Source of the DNA: Nostoc sp. FACHB-973
GTDB lineage: Bacteria; Cyanobacteriota; Cyanobacteriia; Cyanobacteriales; Nostocaceae
Reading direction: 5' to 3'
Assembly (NCBI RefSeq): GCF_014698115.1
Contig: NZ_JACJSJ010000002.1
Location: forward strand, 124,001 to 188,000
DNA: 64,000 nucleotides
The notes beneath the pieces are model-generated. The model saw nothing but the letters and a program-made list of their open reading frames with translations. It did not search any database and was not told the origin of the DNA. Below are positions 2,769-17,028 of the stretch, one piece after another. Position 1 is the first letter of the stretch, and each line of letters begins with the position of its first letter. A program made the position numbers and the translations under genes.

Positions 2769-4592
2769 TTAGGGTTGATACCGTAGGCTAAAATAAAAGC
2801 CATCATCTTGAGCGTTATTACCGCGATCGCTCAAATCGATAAATGGAAATCCATAATCAAGTCGTAAATTTAAATTATCAATACCAAAGGCTTCATTCCA
2901 CAATAATCCTAAGCCTGCACCGATGAGAAAAGTTTGATCGGGTAGGGAATTCGGATTATTAGACTTATTCCACACAGATCCCATGTCAACAAATGGTGCT
3001 ACTTGAATCGTCGATAATCCAGACTCATTACGCTGCATTGTGATTCTATCTTCGATCGCTACACGAAATCCATTGTCACCTGAGCGGACATTCTGGCGAT
3101 ATCCTCTGACTGATTGTCCGCCGCCAATGACGAATTGCTGGGAAGGTAAGAGGCTATCTGGTGTGAGCTGCAACTCTGCTTGGACGATCAATAATTGATC
3201 GTTGCTGAGTCGCTGTACGCGCTGTATTTGACCTAGCCAACTGAAAAAGCGACCGTCGGGTATGGGGTCATTGTTGATCGTGGCGTCTAAGATGTCAATG
3301 CCAAAACTAAATTGCGATCGCAAGAACCAAGCACCTTGGGGTTCGCGTCTGATATAATCTTGACCAAACTTAATTACACTGGTACGGCTAACTCCATTGG
3401 CATCGGGACCGACACCAAAGGGGGTTGCAAGGTTATCGAAGAGAAAAGTTTGACCATCTTGATAGGTAAATCCTAAAGATAAGGCAAATTCTTCTCTTGG
3501 CGATCGCATCAATGGTTGGCGGTAATTGATTTCATAAAGATCCTGGTTTGCCCGAATGCCAAAGGCGTCGAAGGGTGCTTCAGTGATTCTGTTACGATTA
3601 AATGCAGCTCTAATTTGCACCTTGCCATCCATCGCATTTACTGGAACCTGATAGCTAAAATCAAAGATATCGGAACCACCAGTGAACGAGTGAAAATAAG
3701 ACCCTGCTAACTCATCTCCCATCCCAGTTAAATTGCGATGGCGCAGTTCAACACCCAATCTTTCTGCACCAATACTGGGAGGCGAATAATTATCTACACC
3801 CAAGCTACCAGTTAAAGGATTTGCCTCTTCAACTCTCACAACCAGAACGCTTTGACCAACTTTACCCGTGGGACGCAGACGCGCTTCCACATTTGTAAAC
3901 AGGGGATCGAGTCGCAATAGCTTTAGTTGGTCTTCCAACTTACCAATATTCAGAGGAATACCAGCACCTAATTCGATACGACTGCGAATATAAGATGGGT
4001 TTAATCGCCGCGTTCCTTGGATGTCTATCTCTGCTAAACGCCCTTCAATTACCCGAATCACCACAACACCATCAGTGGTACTAGGTTGCTGAGTTTCTGG
4101 AATCGCTCTGGAATTGAGATACCCTTTATTTAGGTAAAGCTGGGTAACGGCGTCTGCTGCTTGTCTGATTTCTTCTAAAGTCAAGTCTCGTTCTTCAAAC
4201 GGCTTGACAACTGCATTCAAGTCATTTTCACTAAAAACTGTGCTATCCGTCACCTGGATTTTGCGGACTCGAATGCGTTCTGGTGGCGATGATTCGGGGT
4301 TTGGTTGTTGTTGATTAGGTTCAGTTACCGGCGAAGGTTCTGTTTCCTGTACGATTTGTAACTCTGGGTAACTACTATTTGATGTCGAAATATCGGCTGT
4401 AGCTCTAAGTCCGTTGGCAGTTAGAATCCAGAGGGCGGGCAGAATTAACAAGCCACACTTGAAACTGAAACTGTGCTGATTCCATTTAGTATTTGCCAGA
4501 CTTTGCCAAGCGTCTAACTGATGAGAGAGATAGACAATTCTTGGCTGAGTCACTGCTTTCGGCTTAACACGAGTTTCTGTTCCTTTTGTCAT
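2769..4592 (-). CDS. TpsB outer-membrane transporter (ShlB/FhaC/HecB family)
   Basis: This is the outer-membrane partner of a two-partner (type Vb) secretion system. It recognises the TPS domain of its exoprotein and exports it through a 16-strand barrel. A hydrophobic signal segment (about residues 45-64) follows a basic leader. A Pro-rich linker comes next, then POTRA domains (about 100-250, including RVIEGRLAEIDIQG) and the Omp85-type barrel carrying the family VRGY motif (VRGYRQNVRSGDNGF) near residue 497. The length of 607 aa is typical. It diverges from the TPS exoprotein gene at 4929, which is the obvious substrate. Confidence 0.92.
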   Translation of the reverse strand: MTKGTETRVKPKAVTQPRIVYLSHQLDAWQSLANTKWNQHSFSFKCGLLILPALWILTANGLRATADISTSNSSYPELQIVQETEPSPVTEPNQQQPNPESSPPERIRVRKIQVTDSTVFSENDLNAVVKPFEERDLTLEEIRQAADAVTQLYLNKGYLNSRAIPETQQPSTTDGVVVIRVIEGRLAEIDIQGTRRLNPSYIRSRIELGAGIPLNIGKLEDQLKLLRLDPLFTNVEARLRPTGKVGQSVLVVRVEEANPLTGSLGVDNYSPPSIGAERLGVELRHRNLTGMGDELAGSYFHSFTGGSDIFDFSYQVPVNAMDGKVQIRAAFNRNRITEAPFDAFGIRANQDLYEINYRQPLMRSPREEFALSLGFTYQDGQTFLFDNLATPFGVGPDANGVSRTSVIKFGQDYIRREPQGAWFLRSQFSFGIDILDATINNDPIPDGRFFSWLGQIQRVQRLSNDQLLIVQAELQLTPDSLLPSQQFVIGGGQSVRGYRQNVRSGDNGFRVAIEDRITMQRNESGLSTIQVAPFVDMGSVWNKSNNPNSLPDQTFLIGAGLGLLWNEAFGIDNLNLRLDYGFPFIDLSDRGNNAQDDGFYFSLRYQP

Positions 4593-4928
4593 TTCTTTTC
4601 GTTAGAGTGCCCGGTGACTGGGGAGTGGGGAGATGGGGGAGATGGGGGAGATGGGGGAGATGGGGGAGATGAGGGAGATGGGGGAGATGAGGGAGATGGG
4701 TGAGAACTTGCAACAAGTCTTTCCCCTTGTCCCCATTCCCCATTCCCTATTCCCCACTCCCCACTCCCCACTCCCTTTTTATGAATGCATGAATATTTGA
4801 ATATCATATTTTTGACATTCCAATTTAAGAAAATTTGTAACTAAAAAATAATAAACAGCAATGATTACCTAAGTGAAAGCCCTTAACACTATATTCTGGT
4901 AACAGGTAGAAAACTTGGGATTACTTCG
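4593..4928. repeat. Divergent spacer with GATGGGGGA minisatellite
   Basis: This 336-bp spacer between tpsB and the exoprotein gene holds about eight copies of the 9-mer GATGGGGGA at 4630-4700, followed by CCCCATTCC/CCCCACTCC runs to 4770. The AT-rich 4790-4928 part probably carries the exoprotein promoter. Apparent short reading frames here are artefacts of the repeats. Confidence 0.8.
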
Positions 4929-7900
4929 ATGTCACCACTGATTTCCATTGTCATCGTTAATTACAACCGGGAGGCTTACCTTCAAGAAGCGATCGCTAGT
5001 GTCTTAGCGCAGACATGGCCAGATTTGGAGCTAGTAATTTGGGATGATGGATCTTGTGATGAATCAGTGGCGATCGCCAAAAGATATGCTCAACAAGATG
5101 GACGAGTGCGGGTAATCCAAGGACACCATCAAGGAGTTGCTAAGGCTTGCAAAGCTGCAATTAACGAAACTAGTGGCAGTTACATCGGTATAGTTGACAG
5201 TGATGATATCCTCGCCCCTACGGCCTTAGCCGAAACCGCCGCAGTTCTGAATCGCCACCCAGAAACGGGATTTGTTTACACTGACTATTTAAATATCGAT
5301 GCAGATGGCAAAGTTCTTGGTTATGGCGATCGCTGTGATATCCCCTACTCAAAAGAAGGTCTGTTGGTAAACTTCATGACTTTCCACTTCCGCCTCATGC
5401 GTCGTTGTATTTACGACCAAGTGGGGGGTGTCAATGCGTCCTTTACTGGTACTTCCTATGATTACGATTTGTGTTTAAGACTTTCCGAAATTGCCCAGGT
5501 ACGCAGAGTTAAACAGCCTCTATACTTCTACCGAATTCATTCCGAAAGCATCTCTGTTACTAAAAGAACAGAACAAATACTCTGGTCAAAAAAGGCGATC
5601 GCCCAAGCACTTTGGCGACGCGGATTAGCAAATAAGTTACAAATCGATGTAGAATTGCCCGCAGGTAGCTTCATCTTGCGGCGCAAAAAATCTTTACTCT
5701 CCAGTATCGCCACTTCAGTAATAGTTATTGCTCCGCTGCTCGGTGGCATCAGTCCCACCCAAGCACAGCAAATTGTTCCTGCTGCCGATGGTACAAACAC
5801 AATTGTAACTCCCAACGGCAACCGACTTGATATCACCGGCGGTACAACTTCTGGTGATGGTGCCAACCTCTTTCACAGCTTTCAACAGTTTGGGATTTCA
5901 CCAGAACAAATCGCCAACTTTCAAGCCAGCCCAGCGTTGCAAAATATCCTTGGTCGAATTACAGGCGGTAATCCTTCCATCATCAATGGCTTAATTCAGG
6001 TGAGTGGTGGTAGCCCTAACTTGTTCTTGATGAATCCAGCCGGATTTATTTTTGGAGCAAACGCCAGCTTAAATGTACCTGGTGCTTTCACGGTGACAAC
6101 AGCCAACGGCATTGGTTTTGGTAGCAGTTGGTTTAATGGTATTGGTGTTAATGATTACATTAATTTAGTGGGAAACCCCAATGGATTTGCCTTTAGTACT
6201 AGCCAGCCAGGGGCGATCGTGAATGCTGGAAATTTGGCAGTCGGTACGGGGCAGAATTTGAATTTATTGGGTGGTACGGTGGTAAACACCGGGCAAGTTT
6301 CAGCACCAGGAGGACAAATAACTGTCACATCCGTACCCGGTCAAAATTGGGTGCGTCTCAGTCAGCCAGGAAATGTGCTGAGTCTGGAAATTCAGCCCCT
6401 CGCCTCTAGTAGTAACCAACCCAATAACTGGACAATTCCCATTGCATCTTTACCAGAATTGCTCACAGTCGGTAACACTAACACCGGGTTAACTGCCAAT
6501 GCTGATGGTACTGTACAACTAACAGGCTCTAACGTCAAAATTCCTGCAACTCCAGGTACAACCATTGTTTCTGGCACAGTGGATGTATCAAGTCAAACAG
6601 GCGGGACAGTGACTGCTTTGGGTAAAAGAGTGGCGGTGATTGATGGCAATATTAACGCCTCTGGAACAAATGGTGGCGGTACGGTACTAATTGGTGGCGA
6701 TTACCAAGGTAACGGAACTTTACCCAACGCAGAGCAGACTTATGTTAACTCCAACTCCACGATTAATGCCGATAGCAATTTGCATGGAAATGGCGGACGG
6801 GTGATTGTTTGGGGGAACGACACAACCCAATTTTTTGGTAACATTTCAGCTCGTGGAGGAGCAAATGCTGGCAATGGTGGTTTTGTCGAAGTATCGGGCA
6901 AAAATTTCTTGACCTTCAACGGTGTGGTTGATACTTCAGCCGCCAATGGCAGCTTTGGTACATTATTGCTAGACCCCAGCACATTGACTATTATCGATGG
7001 TGGAGCAGGTACTTTTGATGCCACAGCTGGTAACATTGCTTTTGGCGATGCAGATATTGGGGGTAATACAGTTTCATGGGGTGCGATCGCCACTTCAGGT
7101 GCAAATATCAACTTACAAGCCACAGGCAATATTACCATCAATGACATCACCGGAGCGACACCTGGAGTCACTACCGCCGCTGGTGTTGCGACATTAAACT
7201 TGGGTAGTGGCGGTAGCTTTAGCCTCTCCTCACAAACTGGTTCTGTAAACTTTGTCGATCCTACCAACACAATTGTCACAACTGGAGGAGCAATAAATAT
7301 TTCTGGAGCCAGCCTATCACTAGGAAATCTAGACACAACTGCTGATTTCAGTAGAAGCGGGGATATAACCTTGTCTGGGAGTGGCAACATTAGTGCAGGC
7401 AACATCATTGCCAGTGGACAGGGCTACTCAGCAGGTAATGTTCAAGTCATAAGCAGCAATGGTGGAATTACCCTGAATCAGATCAACACCAGCGATAGTG
7501 GAGGGGTTGGCAATGCCACAGCTGGGACAGTGACTTTGACTGCGGCAGGCAATATCTTCACTAATGCGATCGATTCTTTTTCCAATGATGCTGGTGGCTT
7601 AGGTACTGGTGGCGATGTACAAGTAACAACCACCGTAGGTAGTATCACCACCGGGGCAATAAACTCGTCTCTAGTCAAGGAAGGAGGTGGCCAATTTACT
7701 GGCACGGCTGGTGCGGTCACCTTAACTGCCACAGATAATATCACTGTGAATGGCGGTATTAATACCTCAGCCAGCACCACGGGAGTAGATGGTGATACAA
7801 GTGCTACAGGCGGTGCAGTCAGCTTAAGCGCTACAAATAATATTACGGTGAATGACGCTATCAATGCTTCAGCGATCGCCACTGGATTTGATACAGAAAC

Positions 7901-10082
7901 TGCCACAGCTGGCGACGTTACCCTACAGACTAACAGTACCGCTGGCAGCACAATTCGTTTTACGACCATCAACACACAGGCAACAACCCAGGCTGCTGGG
8001 CCAGCCACTGGTGGCGATGTGCAAGTGCTGACAAATGGACTGGTTCAAGGAACAGGGACAATTTTTGAGGGAGAGAACGATACCGGTATCACCATCGCTA
8101 CCGGCGGAATTTTGGATTTTGGAGAAGGAAGTTCTAGCATTGCCGGAGGTACTGTCACAATTAGACATGATGGTGGCCCAGACAATGTTGCATTTACTGT
8201 ACCTGATGGGCCGGGTATCAATGGCACACGTGGAACAATTAACACTGGAAATGGTCAAAGCATCGGTGGTTTTGTGAGCTTTCCAGTCTTGCCAACTGGC
8301 GGAGATGCCACTGGCACGCCAGCCAGCATCACCATTACATCCGTAAATACCCCGCCTACACTGACAACAAACTCGCCCCTTTCATCCAATGCCCAAGTCA
8401 ATCAAACCTTGAGCTTCACATTTACAGCCAGCACTAGCGATGTCAATCTAGATAATACTACCGTTGTCATTGATGCCATCCAGGCAGGAACCTTGAGACG
8501 GGGCGATACGGTTTTAGCTGCGGGAGACACATTAACTATAGGTGAAACATTAAATTACACACCACCAACTGATAGTACAGGGCTAATCAATGCATTCACA
8601 CTTAGAGCGAGCGATGTTGTTTCATCCTCAGAACCTGTACAAGTAGCAATTAACGTGAATGTGCCTAATGTTCCTGATGTTCCTGATGTTCCTGATGTTC
8701 CTGATGTTCCTAATGAGCCTGATATTCCTGATGTTCCTCCCTGCTCATTCCAGTGCAATCCAGGTAACCCAGGTAACCCTAACCCTGGCAATCCGAAGAT
8801 TGATAACCCTGTAATTAATACCGATCCTACTCCCGAAGATAAATTCACAGATGATTTTGGGGATTATTTAGGCATACCCATTCCTAAAATTAAAACACTA
8901 GATGATGCCAAAGAAATTGCTAACAAAATTGAGAAAGCTACTGGTGTAAAACCTGCATTTATCTACCTTAGTTTTGTCCCCGTGGAGATTATACCAGAGA
9001 GAACTAAACAGTTGAATACCCTAGCAGAACAGGATAGCGATCAACTGGAAGTAGTGGTAGTCACTGGCAAAGGTGACCCCATTCGTAAGCGTATCCCAGA
9101 AACCACCAGAGCCAAAGTTTTACAAGTAGCTCAAGAATTTCGTGACCAAATTGTAAGTCCACAAAACCGTCGCCGCACTGGTTATTTGCGTCCATCTCAA
9201 CAACTTTATCGCTGGATAATTGCACCACTGGAGGCAGATTTACAAACGAGAGAAATTAACAATTTAGTCTTTTTACCAGACATTGGTTTACGTTCAACTC
9301 CAATGGCAGCGCTTCACGATGGTAAGCAGTTTCTGGTAGAAAAATACAGCATTGGCTTGATGCCAAGTCTCAGCTTGACCAACACCCTCTACACAGACAT
9401 TAGAAAATCTCAAATTTTAGCCCTGGGGGTTTCTCAGAGTACTCAAGGGCAAGATCCTTTACCAGCAGTTCCCGTGGAGATTTCAACATTGGTATCCAAA
9501 CTCTGGCAAGGTAAATTGTTGTTAGACAAACAAGCCACCTTAGAAAATCTCAAAAGTGTTCGCCGTCAACAACCTTTTGGCATTATTCACATGGCAACCC
9601 ATGCCGATTTTGCGACCGGCGGCTTGAGTAATTCTTATATTCAACTGTGGGAAGACAAGTTACGCTTGAACCAGTTACGGCAGTTGCGGTTGAACGAACC
9701 CCAAGTAGAAATGATGGTGTTGAGTGCTTGTAGGACAGCCTTGGGGGATGAAGAATCAGAACTTGGGTTTGCGGGTTTAGCAGTGCTGGCAGGTGTGAAA
9801 ACTAGTGTTGCTAGTCTTTGGTCGGTTAATGATTCTGGTACAGCAGCATTAATGACCAAATTTTATGAGAATTTAAAGACAGCTCCGATTAAGGCAGAGG
9901 CTTTGAGACAAGCTCAAATAGCTATGGCCAAAGGGCAAATTTACGTCAAGGATGGTCAAATCCAAGGTTTGGGAGCAGTCGGGAACTTGCCTTTGCCTGC
10001 TGAAAGTATTGATGAAGCTGATGAATCACTGATGCATCCTTATTATTGGGCTGGATTCACAATGGTTGGCAATCCTTGGTGA
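4929..10082 (+). CDS. GT2 - TPS exoprotein (haemagglutinin-like) - CHAT protease fusion
   Basis: A continuous 1717-residue frame with four parts. Residues 1-210 are a complete family 2 glycosyltransferase (ISIVIVNYNR, VDSDD at 89-93). Residues 251-281 look like a signal peptide: basic RRKKS, a hydrophobic core, then TQAQ. About 281-420 is the TPS secretion domain with NPAGFIFG (369-376), followed by haemagglutinin-type beta-helix repeats, a cadherin-like module and a PDV-repeat hinge at about 1247-1265. The end, about 1340-1717, is a CHAT (caspase-like) protease with His1558 (HMATHADF) and Cys1601 (LSACRTALG). TPS-CHAT proteins are known in cyanobacteria; a cytosolic GT2 ahead of the signal peptide is odd. 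TTG at 5676, preceded by AGGT, could start a conventional exoprotein from inside the frame. Partner TpsB is divergent. Confidence 0.9.
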   Translation: MSPLISIVIVNYNREAYLQEAIASVLAQTWPDLELVIWDDGSCDESVAIAKRYAQQDGRVRVIQGHHQGVAKACKAAINETSGSYIGIVDSDDILAPTALAETAAVLNRHPETGFVYTDYLNIDADGKVLGYGDRCDIPYSKEGLLVNFMTFHFRLMRRCIYDQVGGVNASFTGTSYDYDLCLRLSEIAQVRRVKQPLYFYRIHSESISVTKRTEQILWSKKAIAQALWRRGLANKLQIDVELPAGSFILRRKKSLLSSIATSVIVIAPLLGGISPTQAQQIVPAADGTNTIVTPNGNRLDITGGTTSGDGANLFHSFQQFGISPEQIANFQASPALQNILGRITGGNPSIINGLIQVSGGSPNLFLMNPAGFIFGANASLNVPGAFTVTTANGIGFGSSWFNGIGVNDYINLVGNPNGFAFSTSQPGAIVNAGNLAVGTGQNLNLLGGTVVNTGQVSAPGGQITVTSVPGQNWVRLSQPGNVLSLEIQPLASSSNQPNNWTIPIASLPELLTVGNTNTGLTANADGTVQLTGSNVKIPATPGTTIVSGTVDVSSQTGGTVTALGKRVAVIDGNINASGTNGGGTVLIGGDYQGNGTLPNAEQTYVNSNSTINADSNLHGNGGRVIVWGNDTTQFFGNISARGGANAGNGGFVEVSGKNFLTFNGVVDTSAANGSFGTLLLDPSTLTIIDGGAGTFDATAGNIAFGDADIGGNTVSWGAIATSGANINLQATGNITINDITGATPGVTTAAGVATLNLGSGGSFSLSSQTGSVNFVDPTNTIVTTGGAINISGASLSLGNLDTTADFSRSGDITLSGSGNISAGNIIASGQGYSAGNVQVISSNGGITLNQINTSDSGGVGNATAGTVTLTAAGNIFTNAIDSFSNDAGGLGTGGDVQVTTTVGSITTGAINSSLVKEGGGQFTGTAGAVTLTATDNITVNGGINTSASTTGVDGDTSATGGAVSLSATNNITVNDAINASAIATGFDTETATAGDVTLQTNSTAGSTIRFTTINTQATTQAAGPATGGDVQVLTNGLVQGTGTIFEGENDTGITIATGGILDFGEGSSSIAGGTVTIRHDGGPDNVAFTVPDGPGINGTRGTINTGNGQSIGGFVSFPVLPTGGDATGTPASITITSVNTPPTLTTNSPLSSNAQVNQTLSFTFTASTSDVNLDNTTVVIDAIQAGTLRRGDTVLAAGDTLTIGETLNYTPPTDSTGLINAFTLRASDVVSSSEPVQVAINVNVPNVPDVPDVPDVPDVPNEPDIPDVPPCSFQCNPGNPGNPNPGNPKIDNPVINTDPTPEDKFTDDFGDYLGIPIPKIKTLDDAKEIANKIEKATGVKPAFIYLSFVPVEIIPERTKQLNTLAEQDSDQLEVVVVTGKGDPIRKRIPETTRAKVLQVAQEFRDQIVSPQNRRRTGYLRPSQQLYRWIIAPLEADLQTREINNLVFLPDIGLRSTPMAALHDGKQFLVEKYSIGLMPSLSLTNTLYTDIRKSQILALGVSQSTQGQDPLPAVPVEISTLVSKLWQGKLLLDKQATLENLKSVRRQQPFGIIHMATHADFATGGLSNSYIQLWEDKLRLNQLRQLRLNEPQVEMMVLSACRTALGDEESELGFAGLAVLAGVKTSVASLWSVNDSGTAALMTKFYENLKTAPIKAEALRQAQIAMAKGQIYVKDGQIQGLGAVGNLPLPAESIDEADESLMHPYYWAGFTMVGNPW
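5663..5678 (+). promoter_or_regulatory. Possible internal ribosome binding site and TTG start
   Basis: AGGT at 5663-5666 sits 9 nt before TTG 5676. That codon directly precedes RRKKSLLSS, the basic n-region of the internal signal peptide. Initiation here would give a secreted TPS-CHAT protein without the glycosyltransferase. It is suggestive only, since AGGT and TTG are common. Confidence 0.35.
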
Positions 10083-15369: not shown

Positions 15370-17028
15370 ATGGCAAAGCCAATTGAATTTAATTTATTTG
15401 CACCCTACAACAAAGGAGCCGCACTAATTGGTTCTTTTTCTGATTGGCAAGAAATTCCAATGGAAAAAGGTGATGATGGCTATTTCCGCACAAGTGTTGA
15501 ATTAGAAGATGGCGCTTATCAATATAAATTCCGCGTCCAAACAAATTCATGGTTTTTTGAACCAGAACAATGGGTTGATGTCACAGATCCCTATGCAACT
15601 GATATAGATGAAGTGGGTGGAGAAGATAATGGTATTATCCGCGTCAAAGATGGGGAAAGAATTGTTGATACCTATGTTTGGCGACATGATGATAAACCTT
15701 TACCTGCTGACCATGAATTAGTAATTTATGAACTGCATGTTGGTGATTTTTCTGGTGGTGAAGATGACCCTTATGCACGAGGCAAATACAAACATGTCGT
15801 TGAAAAGTTAGATTATTTGTGTGAATTAGGAATCAATGCTATTGAGTTGATGCCAATAAAAGAATATCCTGGCGATCATAGCTGGGGTTATAATCCCCGC
15901 CACTTCTTTGCAACAGAATCTAGTTATGGTACTACTGCTGAGTTGAAAAACTTGATTGATGAGTGTCATGCTAGAGGCATTCGTGTAATTAATGATGGAA
16001 TTTATAACCACTCAGAAGCATCCAGTCCATTAACACAAATTGACCATGATTATTGGTATCATCACTCTCCCCGTGACCCTGATAATAACTGGGGTCCTGA
16101 GTTTAATTATGAACATTACGACGAAAATTTAGATACTTTTCCAGCGCGAAAATTTATTGGTGAAACAATCCGTTATTGGATTACGGAATTTCATCTTGAT
16201 GGTATTCGCTATGATGCAGCGCGGCAAATTGCTAACTATGATTTCATGCACTGGATTGTGCAAGAAGCTAAAAATACTGCTGGTGCAAAACCTTTTTATA
16301 ACGTCGCCGAACACATTCCTGAAACTACCAGCATAACCAATGTCGATGGGCCGATGGATGGTTGCTGGCATGATAGTTTTTATCACTGCATTTTAGAGCA
16401 TATCTGCGGCGATACATTTGATTTAGAGCGTCTGAAAGATGTTATTGACTGCAAACGTCAAGGTTTCTTGGGTGCTACTAATGTAGTAAATTATCTCACC
16501 AACCATGACCATCATCATCTCATGGTAGAACTGGGGAACCGTGAGATTTTTGATGAAGAAGCTTTTAGGCGGATTAAATTAGGAGTAGCTATCCTGATGA
16601 CTGCTATTGGTGTACCTTTGATTTGGATGGGAGAGGAATTTGGCGAGTACAAACCTAAGCAACCTGAGTCAGCTAAAATCGATTGGACGCTGTTGGGTAA
16701 TGATTTAAATCGTGGTTTATTTGAATATTACAAAGGTTTAACTAACCTGCGTAAAAGTAATCATGCTCTCTACACAGAAAATATTGATTTTATTCACGAA
16801 AATGCAGAGGCAAAAGTGTTAGCTTATAGCCGTTGGAATGAACAAGGTTCTCGCGTAGTCGTGGTAGCGAATTTCTCAGAAAATTTCCTAGCTGGCTATC
16901 ATGTTCCTAACTTTCCTAGCGGTGGTACATGGCACGAATGGACTGCGAATTATGATGTGGAAGGTGGTGACGATGGCATCATCACTGATTTGGGACCATA
17001 CGAAGCTAAAGTGTTTGTTTGGCAGTAA
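15370..17028 (+). CDS. GH13 alpha-amylase family enzyme with N-terminal CBM48
   Basis: This is a glycoside hydrolase family 13 enzyme acting on alpha-glucans. An N-terminal CBM48/isoamylase-type domain (about residues 1-95, FNLFAPYNKGAALIGSFSDW) precedes the TIM barrel. The catalytic triad is visible: nucleophile Asp282 (GIRYDAAR), acid/base Glu314 (NVAEHIP) and Asp380 (TNHDHHHL). A C-terminal beta domain ends the protein. Its layout resembles branching enzyme and trehalohydrolase relatives, but at 552 aa it is shorter than a branching enzyme, so the exact substrate is uncertain. It is a single-gene unit. Confidence 0.88.
   Translation: MAKPIEFNLFAPYNKGAALIGSFSDWQEIPMEKGDDGYFRTSVELEDGAYQYKFRVQTNSWFFEPEQWVDVTDPYATDIDEVGGEDNGIIRVKDGERIVDTYVWRHDDKPLPADHELVIYELHVGDFSGGEDDPYARGKYKHVVEKLDYLCELGINAIELMPIKEYPGDHSWGYNPRHFFATESSYGTTAELKNLIDECHARGIRVINDGIYNHSEASSPLTQIDHDYWYHHSPRDPDNNWGPEFNYEHYDENLDTFPARKFIGETIRYWITEFHLDGIRYDAARQIANYDFMHWIVQEAKNTAGAKPFYNVAEHIPETTSITNVDGPMDGCWHDSFYHCILEHICGDTFDLERLKDVIDCKRQGFLGATNVVNYLTNHDHHHLMVELGNREIFDEEAFRRIKLGVAILMTAIGVPLIWMGEEFGEYKPKQPESAKIDWTLLGNDLNRGLFEYYKGLTNLRKSNHALYTENIDFIHENAEAKVLAYSRWNEQGSRVVVVANFSENFLAGYHVPNFPSGGTWHEWTANYDVEGGDDGIITDLGPYEAKVFVWQ

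Follow-up and report, generated by a model that had tools for sequence, protein, structure and literature searches.

Cleavable Sec signals are taught as N-terminal elements. Here an enzyme-sized domain precedes a putative cleavable Sec signal, in many cyanobacteria, and the question is how such a protein is made, divided, and exported. We address it for a gene in a 64,000-nucleotide stretch of DNA from Nostoc sp. FACHB-973 (the window), for which a preliminary description had rightly posed the topology puzzle of a glycosyltransferase (GT2) lying ahead of a signal peptide, and had offered three solutions: that the GT2 is made separately, that it is cleaved off, or that it modifies the exoprotein before export.

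Architecture of the fusion gene

The gene occupies positions 4929 to 10082 of the forward strand as a single open reading frame of 1717 amino acids, with an ATG start and without an internal stop. Pfam assigns residues 6 to 164 of the product to Glycos_transf_2 (7.3e-31), residues 286 to 484 (positions 5784 to 6380) to the two-partner secretion (TPS) domain (1.7e-40), and residues 1421 to 1715 (positions 9189 to 10073) to CHAT (9.6e-75), confirming that GT2, a putative internal signal peptide, TPS, and CHAT follow one another in one frame, as they do in the relatives described below. The TPS domain includes NPAGFIFG, and NCBIfam places adhes_NPXG (TIGR01901) at residues 315 to 392. The product resembles TpsA proteins in having a TPS domain with an NPxG-type motif (PF05860, TIGR01901) and a cognate TpsB (POTRA plus ShlB/FhaC barrel) encoded alongside, and it departs from them in that its signal peptide is not N-terminal, about 250 residues of GT2 preceding it. 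The partner is the divergent gene at 2769 to 4592 on the reverse strand, an outer-membrane transporter with POTRA_2 and ShlB matches, in agreement with its earlier assignment as TpsB. Of 19 places in the window genome that encode a TPS domain, only this one has a GT2 of this subfamily (threshold, 1e-45).

Between the TPS and CHAT domains lies a repetitive passenger (6381 to 9188) that is presumably beta-helical. The haemagglutinin repeats once attributed to it were not borne out: at E≤5, the Pfam matches beyond the signal peptide are limited to TPS, CHAT, and DUF6727, the last of these sub-threshold, and no recognizable haemagglutinin repeat family was found in the passenger above the Pfam cut-off. 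Repeats of other kinds occur at the DNA level, with tandem copies of GGGGAGATG (8.8 copies) and TTCCCCA (7.7 copies) in the divergent intergenic region at 4627 to 4775 and 9-base tandem repeats at 8659 to 8779, in the linker ahead of CHAT.

Distribution of the fusion in cyanobacteria

Of 217 family genomes searched with residues 1 to 500, at least 69 have GT2 and TPS in one frame. The corresponding count among the matches listed for 388 genomes of the class is at least 29, one of them (G422) recognized as fused only from its fetched locus; the two genome sets overlap. Among the best 120 of 2361 matching proteins, 118 have the GT2, TPS, and CHAT Pfam domains and 2 have GT2 and TPS, and the names in these 120 include Nostoc, Anabaena, Calothrix, Tolypothrix, Scytonema, Leptolyngbyaceae, Phormidesmis, and Pleurocapsa. 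Laboratory strains with the fusion include Nostoc sp. PCC 7524 and NIES-3756. The fusion architecture is real and is conserved across families and orders, so that the search for it in other cyanobacteria, proposed at the outset, had a positive outcome. An assembly error or missed frameshift is ruled out by the one-frame relatives in many genomes. The preliminary description had named a frameshift near 5660 as the case that would overturn it, and adjacent GT2-to-TPS pairs in the fetched loci are in the same frame in 111 cases and not in 2, a count in which some loci entered twice and many were chosen for their one-frame match.

Broken copies also occur. The two out-of-frame pairs are those of L169, which reads from GT2 into the signal peptide and breaks inside TPS, and L168, which has a frame break between GT2 and signal peptide plus a frameshift in CHAT; L129, L141, and L172 read through from GT2 to TPS and are broken further on; and L093 (Chrysosporum bergii) is a broken remnant. 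TPS-CHAT proteins with no GT2 in frame (L096 to L099, L102, L107, and L165 to L167, from other cyanobacteria) have their TPS domain starting 31 to 69 residues into the open frame. Of 81 locus rows, which include some loci twice, 53 have a divergent TpsB upstream; in the flanking DNA examined, tpsB was not found at L158 to L163, L164, L071, and nearly all class-level loci.

We built quick phylogenetic trees after dropping near-copies, which kept 79 of 89 rows for TPS-CHAT and 87 of 102 for GT2. The fused label changes 5 times on the TPS-CHAT tree and 7 times on the GT2 tree, where four rows that carry the label solo (L128, L168, L169, and L196) represent truncated or broken fusions or reach the edge of a contig. 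At least 3 changes in each tree are forced by starred branches, and one or several fusion origins are both compatible with these counts.

The architecture itself varies. L158 to L163 form a second GT2-TPS-CHAT subfamily in the family (a clade of 6 with 100% SH-aLRT), and L158 has an additional TPS-CHAT frame downstream. L147 (4067 to 10297, reverse strand, in G004) encodes GT2-TPS-TPS-CHAT, with two TPS domains in one frame of 2077 aa, and L183 (4572 to 11027, reverse strand, in G231) has more than 200 residues from GT2 to TPS, its first signal-like core lying near the GT2. The protein P0004 of Anabaena sp. PCC 7938 is a GT2-TPS protein of 1622 aa with no CHAT domain listed, which suggests exchange of the C-terminal module.

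Probable translation from the GT2 start codon

We looked for ATG, GTG, or TTG in 63 codons ending 12 codons ahead of the TPS match. Eight of 67 distinct loci have none there (L021, L023, L037, L091, L147, L148, L157, and L161), among them two close relatives of the window gene (L021 and L023) and two whose linker is longer than the stretch scanned (L091 and L148). The remaining 59 do carry such a codon somewhere in the stretch. The nearest internal-start candidate to the signal core in the window is a TTG at 5676 to 5678 (the L250 codon), preceded by AGGT, and a second TTG lies seven codons upstream of it. The stretches from the GT2 or its remnant to the signal core range from a few up to 199 codons, with inserted repeats, and 1788 linker codons from the 35 loci with at least 12 such codons contain 0 stops in frame versus 56 and 67 in the other frames, a count biased by the choice of these loci for GT2 and TPS in one frame.

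The openness of loci in which the GT2 has decayed is less exposed to that selection bias. Four sister loci lack the GT2 core (L086, Komarekiella delphini-convector; L088, Nostoc sp. B(2019); L089, K. atlantica; L090, Nostoc sp. MG11) and retain its first 54 to 75 residues, followed by remnants and inserts, and in each no stop interrupts the frame between the GT2 ATG and the signal peptide, which was the case for only 53, 11, 17, and 464, respectively, of 5000 Markov-1 copies of these stretches. Their residual N termini have too few changes for selection to be judged, with dN exceeding dS in one of six pairs. L164 (in G068) has an in-frame deletion of the GT2 that leaves the ATG and 25 residues directly ahead of the signal core; this remnant is identical to the window GT2 N terminus at 13 of 25 residues, a score that none of 5000 shuffles equalled, and agrees with it at 53 of 75 bases. 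The 11 intervening codons of L164 are too few for openness to be judged (2117 of 5000 copies open), and the locus lies inside the fused clade (SH-aLRT of 90 for its pair with G004 and 100 for a clade of 36). Since the GT2 was lost while its start codon was kept, we read the exoprotein as translated from the GT2 start, and these natural losses indicate that the export part depends on the enzyme's start codon. On this comparison of sequences, one precursor beginning at the GT2 start codon is very probable.

A putative internal signal peptide

The junction between GT2 and TPS reads ..GSFILRRKKSLLSSIATSVIVIAPLLGGISPTQA|QQIVPA.., a basic stretch followed by a hydrophobic core and a signal-peptidase-type site. 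The putative signal peptide spans residues 250 to 279 approximately, with RRKK at 251 to 254, the core, and a T-Q-A|Q site (core and T-Q-A279 at 5691 to 5765, recognized by pattern), so that the mature chain would begin at Q280. An [AVGSTIL]-x-A pattern stands ahead of TPS in all 87 distinct relatives, in which the -3 residue is A in 46, T in 16, and V in 13, and the best 11-residue Kyte-Doolittle mean of the hydrophobic core by the site ranges from 1.36 to 2.92. The earlier suggestion that the GT2 is cleaved off gains from this constancy but is tempered by a loose test, as 790 of the 1277 further 17-residue stretches taken from these proteins also contain the pattern. By itself it carries little weight, and cleavage is argued from its position combined with the core and the basic stretch. 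A cut by signal peptidase I after A279 is, from the site, probable.

The basic stretch has a counterpart in unfused enzymes: the GT2 tail, which reads ..GRFILRRKK in many fusion members, resembles the C termini of most of 15 unfused relatives, where the chain stops shortly beyond a basic tail of this kind. The fusion seems to join the basic end of the GT2 to the signal core, such that the LRRKK at residues 250 to 254 (5676 to 5690) may be both the GT2 tail and, now, the n-region of the signal peptide.

The GT2 domain and its possible acceptors

Residues 1 to 244 (4929 to 5660) form a GT2 domain with a GT-A fold, a DXD motif, and the catalytic Asp. The DXD-type motif is D90-S-D-D93 (5196 to 5207). 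All 82 sequences in which this region survives have D90, D92, and D93, and D178, which we take to be the catalytic base of GT2, is found in 83 of 84. In comparisons with two full-length relatives (L050 and L076, those of ten left in the de-duplicated set), dN/dS was 0.24 and 0.18 for GT2, 0.07 and 0.09 for CHAT, and 0.65 and 0.25 for the linker. An AlphaFold model of residues 1 to 290 (mean pLDDT, 84.3; weak from about 268 on) adopts the GT-A fold, and Foldseek ranks two K4 chondroitin polymerase structures, 2z86 and 2z87, at the top. The GT2 domain of the Escherichia coli enzyme (2z86) is also the best PDB match by sequence (1.4e-33), and the likeness extends over nearly the whole domain; K4 chondroitin polymerase itself polymerizes a polysaccharide, has additional domains, and is not joined to an exoprotein. 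With a polysaccharide synthase as its nearest solved relative, the GT2 may use a glycan as acceptor. Two proteins, in L130 (2015 to 4897, reverse strand, 961 aa) and L131 (1753 to 5400, reverse strand, 1216 aa), have three GT2-type stretches in a row, of which the first is close to the window GT2.

An open reading frame of at least 900 aa lies within 4.9 kb of 9 of 15 unfused GT2 loci, versus 2 of 40 other GT2s hand-picked from the top-scoring rows listed for the same genomes, 4 of whose 40 stretches were shortened by contig ends (Fisher P = 3.4e-5); at 700 aa or more, the counts are 12 of 15 and 10 of 40 (P = 3.2e-4). A Pfam scan, which covered the nine long frames beside unfused GT2s, found surface-type domains in 4 of 9: PA14-CARDB in L133, SBBP/DUF4114/Calx-beta in L134, RHS/FG-GAP in L136, and Ig/cadherin/PPC in L194. 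Among the others, L132 has DUF6519, and L139, matching matrixin and an OB-fold weakly, is of unclear type. Pfam gave nothing for L137 and L197. The long frame of L193 encodes a Tn3 transposase, with an RTX/FG-GAP protein on its other side; without this transposase the association is 8 of 15 (P = 1.8e-4). L133, L137, and L139 share homologous neighbors. C39-type ABC exporters lie near L195 and L199, and the unfused GT2 of L135 is in an exosortase/Poly_export cluster. The association with long frames suggests, from gene neighborhood, that this GT2 subfamily serves exported surface proteins, and it lends indirect support to the earlier suggestion, a plausible one, that the GT2 would modify the exoprotein before export.

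Passenger composition offered nothing telling between fused and GT2-less proteins, either in Ser/Thr content, which is 0.201 for TPS-CHAT without GT2 and 0.215 for each of the fused, decayed, and deleted classes, or in N-sequon density per 100 residues (2.29, 2.36, 1.48, and 2.03 in the passengers of fused, decayed, deleted, and GT2-less TPS-CHAT proteins). A separate family of about 245 to 285 aa occurs beside unfused GT2s and very long frames (L133, 6733 to 7479, forward strand; L137, 3823 to 4551, reverse strand; L139, 3586 to 4440, reverse strand); its members are 41 to 56% identical to each other, and the one at L133 has no Pfam match.

Alternative explanations

Two alternatives concern how the exoprotein comes to be a separate molecule. 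The GT2 and the exoprotein might be made separately from one gene, the latter from an internal TTG or GTG just ahead of the signal peptide, and the window sequence itself would permit this with its in-frame TTGs, the one at 5676 yielding MRRKKSLLSS.., a good signal-peptide start with AGGT nearby. L168, where GT2 and TPS are in different frames and an ATG stands just ahead of the signal core, fits this as well, but that locus is also frameshifted in CHAT. The absence of such a codon from the scanned stretch of 8 of 67 relatives, near ones included, the open linkers, and the decay or deletion of the GT2 with start and frame kept contradict separate synthesis as it had been proposed; internal initiation as the general mode is ruled out by the codon-level test and the natural GT2 decay, and we consider a separate start very improbable. 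Starting from one precursor, the signal peptide might instead stay uncut and act as a membrane anchor, so that the whole protein would span the inner membrane, its GT2 on the cytosolic side and TPS-CHAT on the periplasmic side. Bacteria do have type II membrane proteins whose N-terminal domain folds in the cytosol (PknB and RodZ), and the looseness of the cleavage pattern leaves room for it. Against an anchor stand the small residue-x-A motif at the expected place in all 87 relatives and the conserved TPS domain with its adjacent TpsB, which imply release to the outside, and we regard this arrangement as improbable.

The other two concern what the GT2 does. It might be a degenerate leader, no longer an active enzyme, of which only the start is needed. 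This appears true of five species, the four with a decayed GT2 and that of L164, in which no replacement GT2 of this subfamily was found at 1e-45; these keep the exoprotein without the GT2 or a subfamily copy, and the GT2 is dispensable there. As a general account it is scarcely credible, given catalytic aspartates in all sequences that keep the region and a dN/dS of about 0.2 in two comparisons. It is less easy to dismiss, if still somewhat unlikely, that the GT2 is a membrane-tethered enzyme for an exopolysaccharide or lipid-linked glycan with no action in cis, the surface protein being made in equal amounts and working on or in that polysaccharide, such that the fusion only couples expression. 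K4 chondroitin polymerase as the closest solved enzyme and the exosortase/Poly_export setting of L135 are in keeping with this, whereas unfused relatives lie near very long frames, several of surface type, more often than other GT2s do. In a scan of seven window proteins, namely the fusion and six of its neighbors, no exopolysaccharide gene was recognized, and the sole carbohydrate enzyme besides the fusion GT2 is an alpha-amylase/CBM48 protein (15370 to 17028).

Proposed mechanism and relation to known systems

The explanation that we prefer as a whole, at evenly balanced confidence, is one precursor with internal signal cleavage, export through TpsB, and modification by the GT2 in cis. Translation would begin at the start codon of the GT2, whose basic C-terminal tail would act as n-region of the internal signal peptide, so that the GT2 stays cytosolic while the remainder threads through Sec in a presumed N-in/C-out insertion. 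Signal peptidase I would cut after A279, and the TPS-passenger-CHAT portion may then exit via the neighboring TpsB, leaving the GT2 inside, perhaps tethered by the signal-peptide remnant. The sugar acceptor of the GT2 may be its own passenger, or a passenger-binding glycan, with transfer taking place while the two are one chain or just after. The parts that comparison supports are the one frame, the one start, the signal core before TPS, the GT2 catalytic residues, the CHAT dyad, and the divergent tpsB. A self-modifying and self-dividing exoprotein, whose GT2 decorates the joined passenger and is then removed by signal peptidase at the internal signal, is a tentative reading, and under it every molecule sent out would come with an enzyme of its own that is left behind inside the cell.

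The nearest precedent is the HMW1A/HMW1B/HMW1C system of Haemophilus influenzae, which likewise brings together a TPS exoprotein, a TpsB, and a cytoplasmic glycosyltransferase; the consulted portions of the reports describe HMW1C as modifying and stabilizing the TPS adhesin before Sec export (PMC3983070, PMC5422565). HMW1C is a separate GT41 enzyme of GT-B fold, whereas the window enzyme is a GT2 of GT-A fold, encoded with TpsA and TpsB and fused in cis ahead of the signal peptide, and the window exoprotein ends in CHAT, unlike that of HMW1. We infer, at somewhat less than even confidence, an HMW1C-like maturation carried out in cis by an unrelated GT-A enzyme; the GT2 would be dedicated to its fused exoprotein. 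The Hmw1B-type TpsB subgroup includes many cyanobacterial sequences, according to the part of PMC4104836 consulted, and the window TpsB is known as POTRA_2/ShlB only. FhaB-type TpsA proteins with an extended signal peptide (portions of PMC5422565) also have extra residues ahead of the Sec core, but the extension in the window is a complete enzyme domain of about 250 residues. Other cyanobacterial TPS-CHAT proteins have both domains in one frame as here, but no GT2 was found in frame with them.

We found no description of a GT2-TPS-CHAT fusion among the titles and abstract openings listed from the open-licence literature (at most 12 of up to 70 per search), and the portions of four papers that were searched for CHAT or haemagglutinin terms (PMC9895726, PMC11424642, PMC12691664, and PMC4390845) give no account of it. 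In databases, the best 120 of 2361 matching proteins are mostly named "CHAT domain-containing protein" or "filamentous hemagglutinin"; as far as we have seen, the architecture is recorded there and not discussed. We file it as a two-partner secretion variant with a glycosyltransferase partner. If action in cis is true, the fusion would embody the TPS protein-glycosylation logic that HMW1C performs in trans, and it would open a way to learn the function of surface CHAT proteins in cyanobacteria.

The presumably exported CHAT domain

The CHAT domain has the His-Cys dyad of CHAT peptidases, and H1558 (9600 to 9602) and C1601 (9729 to 9731) are invariant in 51 of 51 CHAT sequences, upholding the dyad named in the preliminary description. 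Its further characterization as a caspase-like protease stands for the caspase fold, by family, while the activity is predicted from family assignment. By family and intact dyad, the exported CHAT may be a surface or released caspase-fold peptidase; no PDB relatives were found by sequence at 0.1. A peptide SLSLLGGTVV from Nostoc water extracts was assigned to a CHAT domain-containing protein in the consulted portion of PMC9895726; this single peptide hints weakly that TPS-CHAT proteins are produced. Inspection by eye shows LLGGTVV within the window protein's TPS domain as well.
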